From Flavobacteriaceae bacterium (lineage in GTDB: Bacteria > Bacteroidota > Bacteroidia > Flavobacteriales > Flavobacteriaceae), in assembly GCA_002725015.1 (NCBI GenBank), contig PBQM01000075.1:1-33331 (forward strand): 33,331 bases of DNA, in the 5' to 3' direction. Of the stretch, positions 31,777 to 33,331 are shown piece after piece; the stretch's first letter is position 1; each line of letters starts with the position of its first letter. The notes below the pieces were generated by a model, which ran no database searches, was not told the origin of the DNA, and saw nothing but the letters and a program-made list of their open reading frames with translations. Both the position numbers and the translations under genes were made by a program.

Positions 31777-33165
31777 ATGCATCAGCAAGATACCATCATT
31801 GCATTGGCAACTCCTTCCGGCGCTGGGGCAATCGGTGTGCTTCGAATCTCTGGCTCGCTGGCCATTTCCATAACGGAAAGCTTGTTTAAATCCATACACA
31901 ATAAGAATTTGACAACACAGCCTACGCACAGCATTCATTTGGGCCATATTTTTGATGGAGACACCCTTTTGGACGAAGTTTTGGTGAGTTTATTTAAAAA
32001 TCCAAAGTCTTACACTGGTGAGGATGTGGTAGAAATATCCTGCCATGGCAGCCATTACATTCAAACCAAAATTTTACAATTGTTTATTCGCCACGGCTGC
32101 CGCACAGCTGATCCTGGAGAATTTACCCTGCGGGCTTTTATCAACGGAAAAATGGATTTAAGCCAAGCGGAAGCTGTAGCCGACCTTATTGCCAGCGACA
32201 GTGCAGCAGCCCATCAAATTGCAATACAGCAGATGCGTGGTGGCTTTAGTTCTGAAATTAAAGCCCTGCGCGCTGAGCTTTTAGACTTCGCTTCTTTGAT
32301 AGAACTCGAGTTGGACTTTTCTGAGGAAGACGTTGCTTTTGCTGATCAAACACAATTTAAAATACTTTTGGAGCGCATTGTGAAAGTTTTAAAATACCTG
32401 ATGGATTCTTTTTCTACTGGAAATGCCATTAAGAATGGGGTCCCTATTTCTATTGTCGGGGCACCCAATGTAGGAAAATCAACACTCTTAAATGCCCTTT
32501 TAAACGAGGATAAAGCCATTGTGAGTGCGATTGCTGGGACCACTCGAGACGCCATTGAAGACGAATTAATTATTGAGGGTATTAAGTTTCGCTTTATTGA
32601 TACGGCAGGCATTCGCCAAACCGATGATACTGTAGAGTCTATCGGGATTGAAAAGACTTACACGAAAATGGCCCAATCTCAGGTGATTTTGCATCTTTTG
32701 GATGCTTCAGCCCTTACAGAAAGCAGCAGTACCACAATCTTAAAAGCCATTCAAGTCAGCATCGAAATGTACCCTGACATCAAATCCATGGTAGTTTTAA
32801 ATAAAATGGATCTTGTGAATTCAGCCGACGTTTCAGCATTGCTTTCAAAACTTAAGCCTTTACAACTAAGCGCCAAAACCGGGGCGGGGGTAGAGACCCT
32901 CAAATCAGAACTCTTGAGCTTGGTTCAAACTGGAAAGTTGCACAACAACGATACCATTATTACCAATGCCAGACATTACGATGCTTTGGGAAAAGCACTG
33001 CAAAGCATACAGACTGTACAAGCTGGGCTTGAATCCAACCTCTCAGGGGATCTTTTGGCTATCGACCTTCGCGAAGCCCTCTACCATTTTGGCAGAATTA
33101 CAGGTGAAATTTCTACAGACGATTTATTGGGCAATATCTTTGCCAACTTCTGTATCGGTAAGTAA
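31777..33165 (+). CDS. mnmE: tRNA uridine-5-carboxymethylaminomethyl(34) synthesis GTPase MnmE
   Basis: DTIIALATPSGAGAIGVLRISG, GAPNVGKSTLLNALL, FIDTAGIRQTDD, C-terminal FCIGK. Confidence 0.98.
   Translation: MHQQDTIIALATPSGAGAIGVLRISGSLAISITESLFKSIHNKNLTTQPTHSIHLGHIFDGDTLLDEVLVSLFKNPKSYTGEDVVEISCHGSHYIQTKILQLFIRHGCRTADPGEFTLRAFINGKMDLSQAEAVADLIASDSAAAHQIAIQQMRGGFSSEIKALRAELLDFASLIELELDFSEEDVAFADQTQFKILLERIVKVLKYLMDSFSTGNAIKNGVPISIVGAPNVGKSTLLNALLNEDKAIVSAIAGTTRDAIEDELIIEGIKFRFIDTAGIRQTDDTVESIGIEKTYTKMAQSQVILHLLDASALTESSSTTILKAIQVSIEMYPDIKSMVVLNKMDLVNSADVSALLSKLKPLQLSAKTGAGVETLKSELLSLVQTGKLHNNDTIITNARHYDALGKALQSIQTVQAGLESNLSGDLLAIDLREALYHFGRITGEISTDDLLGNIFANFCIGK
33148..33165 (+). other. Candidate trmE/mnmE-type chromosomal attachment site
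   Basis: TTCTGTATCGGTAAGTAA at the extreme 3' end of mnmE, overlapping the stop codon. It resembles the SGI1-family attB at the trmE 3' end. Confidence 0.35.
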
Positions 33166-33265
33166 AGTTAGTTTCCTTTCATTTATTTTTCTTTTCATTT
33201 TAGTGAATATAAGAATATATATTGCTCTATTCTTTGTTTTTATTTAGTTCTTATTTATTATATTT

Positions 33266-33326
33266 ATGTCATAATAGTGTCATAAGAATATTGATTAAGA
33301 CACAAAAGTGTCATAAAGTGTCCTTA
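33266..33326 (+). repeat. Cluster of GTGTCATAA-like short repeats
   Basis: TATGTCATAA, AGTGTCATAA, (inverted) GACAC, AAGTGTCATAA, AGTGTCCTTA. TGTC starts at 33267, 33278, 33309 and 33319. Confidence 0.7.
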
Positions 33327-33331
33327 TGTAG

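Follow-up and report, generated by a model that had tools for sequence, protein, structure and literature searches.

The window analysed here is an entire contig of 33,331 bp (G000:C75) from a MAG of 1.44 Mb that is 73.7% complete. Positions 320 to 31694 contain ordinary-looking housekeeping genes (ribAB, lptF/G, lolA, recG, phosphoglucomutase, rhomboid and others), followed by mnmE (trmE/thdF; 31777–33165, + strand), which encodes the tRNA modification GTPase and has orthologues in 40/40 relatives. The MnmE protein has the C-terminus NIFANFCIGK, and the last codons of the gene (FCIGK-stop) represent an integration target. A 20 bp attachment core, TTCTGTATCGGTAAGTAAAG (33148–33167, + strand), consists of the last 18 bases of mnmE, including the stop codon, plus AG; the identity of this core with the final bases of the gene had been missed in an earlier, sequence-only reading of the contig.

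The core is followed by an AT-rich spacer (33168–33264, + strand), and an array of short repeats begins 101 bp 3′ of the mnmE stop codon (33163–33165). With positions counted from TGTATCGG of the attachment core, the array comprises five predicted arm-type boxes: two direct copies of TGTCATAA on the + strand at +116 (33267–33274) and +127 (33278–33285), 11 bp apart, an inverted box GTGTCTTAA on the − strand at 151 (33295–33303), a further + strand copy of TGTCATAA at 158 (33309–33316), and a + strand TGTCCT box at +168 (33319–33324), located 10 bp from the fourth. The third and fourth boxes together form the inverted repeat GACAC-AAAA-GTGTC (33299–33312). This agrees fully with the sequence-only reading, which had placed same-strand TGTC(A/C)T cores at exactly these starts (TGTCAT at 33267, 33278 and 33309, TGTCCT at 33319), had recognised the inverted repeat, and had described the array as running into the edge of the window. 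The last box indeed ends 7 bp short of the contig end, with the contig stopping 166 bp past the mnmE stop codon, and since the window is a complete contig, the array is cut off by the contig end itself.

Within these 166 bp there are five TGTC/GACA words (P = 0.0015, 2000 dinucleotide shuffles), and the recurrence of exact 8-mers at a spacing of 10–11 bp was also rare in dinucleotide shuffles of the same 166 bp (P = 0.01). Single boxes are common, with 43 TGTCMT hexamers observed in the whole window versus 32 expected, and this could be taken to favour chance clustering in AT-rich intergenic DNA. As this window-wide excess is mild, it is the clustering and phasing of the boxes that count, and not the hexamer as such.

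A genus-wide search with a relaxed form of the doublet identified a second array in the same genome, located near the end of contig C46. On the minus strand of this contig, TGTC boxes are present at −60, −71 and −82 (11-bp steps) and at −135 before a core sequence (C46:14176–14195, − strand), with P = 0.003 and 0.008 in the same two shuffle tests as used for the window. The core forms a 20-bp direct repeat that is identical at both junctions, and TGTCATAA boxes are present at both. The genes past the core on C46 are 58–87% identical to orthologues located, with their order conserved, 3′ of mnmE in four same-genus relatives (G003, G005, G007 and G008), while two others (G009 and G010) gave partial matches in the short stretches compared there. 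As the gene order on C46 matches that downstream of mnmE, C75 and C46 were once neighbours, with an element now located between them. Judged from these sequences, C75 carries the predicted attL and C46 the predicted attR of an element with the mnmE 3′ end as its insertion site, and the gene remains intact because the core is duplicated at the right junction. On its element side, C46 breaks off within the tail of a gene encoding a TPR-repeat protein, approximately 475 bp from the attR core, and a search for contig-end overlaps did not recover the element interior. Differences in coverage or between strains are a likely candidate cause of both contigs breaking inside the element.

The array was absent downstream of mnmE in all ten same-genus relatives (0/10), the combination of doublet and mnmE core was found in no other genome among 398 of the order, and the doublet alone was present in five other genomes among 400 of the family, in none of which it was seen after mnmE. 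When 84,980 species genomes were screened for the core with TGTCATAA, most matches were due to chance and one was a true relative, a locus in an uncultured Algibacter MAG (L180). In this locus, boxes are located at +116(+), +127(+), 151(−), 161(−), 168(+) and 181(+), so that four positions and orientations (+116, +127, 151 and +168) are the same as in the window, though the spacer is only 63% identical (61/97 positions, ungapped); the Algibacter locus has an inverted box at 161 instead of the direct box at 158. Its array is followed by a short frame with an integrase-like start (MKVKLRKVKKGSRVYLSTDIF...), which breaks off and has no significant Pfam match, and since this short start is all that is found, the locus is probably a decayed copy. 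The recombinases of the Algibacter genome are XerC/D-like plus two others, with no arrays nearby. A chance origin of the window array is contradicted by the second junction and by the same register of the boxes in the Algibacter locus, next to the shuffle tests at both junctions and the restriction of core plus doublet to this one genome of the order, and we consider it hardly credible.

Several other matches were rejected. Viral contigs containing the core with TGTCATAA on either side proved to be only chance matches inside phage genes, the TGTCATAA doublets inspected in viral contigs belonged to unrelated phage families, four viral contigs with TGTCANAATAGTGTCANAA were unrelated, and a search for the core with GTGTCA yielded chance matches with a single box near mnmE. 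Separately, a phage family in IMG/VR (L044, L060, L065, L098, L099, L102, L108, L122, L130 and L138) has a conserved intergenic TGTCATAA array of about four boxes, which in the one member read (L060) is located upstream of a gene beginning MNISVFKSLFNSK. Another viral contig (L085, 12997–13347) contains two facing TTGTGTCATAATTGTGTCATAA...TTATGACAC regions approximately 330 bp apart, which are perhaps paired operators or ends.

A comparable layout is found in relatives with an integrase at the same site. A tyrosine integrase gene is located directly 3′ of mnmE in G012, G017, G036 and G014. The Pfam scan, which covered the integrases of G012, G017 and G014, detected the Phage_integrase and SAM-like Phage_int_SAM_5 domains in all three and additionally Arm-DNA-bind_5 in those of G012 and G017; the G036 integrase is 45% identical to the latter two. 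A TGTACC doublet with 11-bp spacing was found at +124 to +153 in G012, G017, G036 and the phage-like contigs L270/L275. Right-hand copies of the core were present approximately 26 kb away in G012 and 32 kb away in G015, in both cases with a TGTACC doublet 47/58 bp before the core, and inverted TGTACC copies were also present at attL of G015, in which no integrase related to those of G012, G017, G036 or G014 was found. The elements of G012 and G015, two genomes of the same family, and of L270/L275 thus resemble that of the window in having the core in the end of mnmE and an 11-bp-phased doublet (+136 to +153), and those of G012 and G015 also in the doublet before the right-hand core (−47/−58), with mixed orientation in G015, but they differ in the box itself, which is TTGTACCT and not GTGTCATAA. 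Other motifs occupy about the same place elsewhere: TGTTGCC boxes follow the core at a similar position in L168/L189, and G014 has TGTTTAC boxes at a spacing of 12 bp as well as inverted copies. Overall, mnmE-targeting elements of Bacteroidota with tyrosine integrases have 11-bp-phased doublets of motifs other than that of the window (TTGTACCT, TTGTTGCC) at roughly its position. No comparable array was detected at 24 control mnmE loci lacking an integrase. Two further observations were made at mnmE loci. In L025, L028 and L189, the elements' own phased doublets are followed at approximately +185 to +270, counted from the mnmE core, by GACAC boxes, which possibly form a second, regulator-type site; in L025 and L028, two of these boxes have a spacing of 10 bp. 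Also, the core recurs as TTCTGTATTGGAAAGTAACAGGAGTTTG, together with matching sequence downstream of it, approximately 4.3 kb after mnmE in G026:C1 (L380), pointing to a small element of about this length at that mnmE gene.

We consider it highly likely that the window terminates in attL of an integrative element inserted into the 3′ end of mnmE, with the phased boxes as putative arm-type sites of a tyrosine integrase. The array was assigned to this class because one motif is present at both ends of the element, with phasing of about a helical turn and at a fixed distance from the core. Very probably, the repeats at the contig end serve an integrase as docking sites and lie at one edge of a mobile element. 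The sequence-only reading had proposed a protein-binding array, with recombinase arm-type sites, iterons or an operator as options. The first is now strongly favoured by the lack of a counterpart in the ten relatives, the second junction and the integrase-bearing analogues. Plasmid iterons were set aside, because no rep gene was seen among those genes of the window that were read or profiled (these resemble chromosomal housekeeping genes), and no plasmid context was apparent. The third option survives as a possible extra function. A link between the array and a mobile element, raised in the same reading, fits the array-free mnmE loci of the same-genus relatives and of the integrase-free controls, and an integrase of the sort it proposed to look for is encoded directly after mnmE in four relatives; the integrase of the window element was not recovered in its own bin.

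According to the main rival, the boxes serve chiefly as operators or as excisionase (Xis/RDF) sites of the same element, where binding of a regulator would govern either the int promoter or the direction in which recombination runs. In the Algibacter locus, a short open frame does follow closely after the boxes, and elements with TTGTACCT doublets (L025, L028 and L189) carry separate GTGTC/GACAC boxes near the start of the next gene, but an operator is needed at one end only, whereas the same boxes are present at attL and attR; RDF sites are usually located in one arm, and the box-to-core spacing is conserved. As the principal function of the boxes we regard this as unlikely, although it may be an added role beside that of arm-type sites. 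Transposon ends, too, can have repeated TGTC boxes of either orientation nearby, and the array could accordingly represent a Tn7- or IS-like end with transposase-binding repeats, and not an attachment site. Against this, the 20-bp core common to both junctions is nothing other than the 3′ end of mnmE, as in islands inserted by tyrosine recombinases, the first box is found 101 bp beyond the stop codon of mnmE and not at the terminus of the element, and neighbouring element types at the mnmE site carry tyrosine integrases, making a transposon end very improbable.

In the preferred reading, that of an attachment site, the element would be a genomic island or prophage inserted into the mnmE 3′ end by site-specific recombination. 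An integrase with an N-terminal arm-binding domain, of the IntCTnDOT/SGI1-like subgroup of tyrosine recombinases, would grip the TGTCATAA boxes, on one face of the DNA given their spacing of about one helical turn, and would act at the mnmE core with its core-binding and catalytic domains, so that the DNA could be bent or bridged for integration and excision. The element presumably encodes this integrase itself, and may be, or may have been, mobile. The bin of the window (73.7% complete) yielded only XerC- and XerD-like recombinases and, elsewhere, a 57-aa integrase fragment; this C-terminal tyrosine recombinase fragment (G000:C53:7868–7993, − strand; L042) is located near a sucD-like gene and is a recombinase relic.

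The contig end is hereby explained as an insertion junction and not as a regulatory array of an obscure kind. The mnmE 3′ end, the target of SGI1 in Gammaproteobacteria, is also a recurrent insertion site for integrative elements of Bacteroidota, the Flavobacteriaceae included, and the mnmE core combined with phased boxes offers a simple means of detecting such elements and defining their boundaries. From the comparison, mnmE elements seem to have an attachment-site layout in common, with box motifs that switch. We tentatively propose, as a possibility that may well not hold, that the Bacteroidota mnmE elements share an attachment blueprint, with phased doublets at approximately +116 to +153 and −47 to −82, and with a box sequence (TGTCATAA, TTGTACCT, TTGTTGCC or TTGTTTAC) that switches with the arm-binding domain of the integrase. 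If true, the box sequences would constitute an exchangeable specificity code across element lineages.

The trmE 3′ end is a known target of SGI1 and MGIVchHai6 (PMC3285670, PMC4958241), with the last 18 bp of trmE/mnmE being the published attB of SGI1 (PMC3285670), and MGIVchHai6 being flanked by TTCTGTATTGGGAAGTAA (attL, at trmE) and TTCTGTATTGGCAAGTAA and having its int gene adjoining trmE (PMC4958241). Like these islands, the window element uses the final 18 bp of mnmE for its core, which is duplicated in direct repeats at attL and attR, but SGI1 and MGIVchHai6 are gammaproteobacterial and mobilised by IncC plasmids, whereas the window element has a Flavobacteriaceae-like host and TGTCATAA boxes; the likeness concerns the attachment site alone, and we do not assign the element to the SGI1 family. 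In a survey of tyrosine recombinases, the SGI1 integrase was placed in the arm-binding subgroup of the Bacteroides element CTnDOT (PMC8138268). The array is consistent with this IntCTnDOT subgroup, found in Bacteroidota, in the subterminal position of the arm-type sites, which in IntCTnDOT are bound by the N-terminal domain (PMC8138268), and the corresponding architecture (Arm-DNA-bind_5, Phage_int_SAM_5 and Phage_integrase) is present after mnmE in G012 and G017. No close described relative was found for the element or its repeat motif, although arrangements of this kind are already known.
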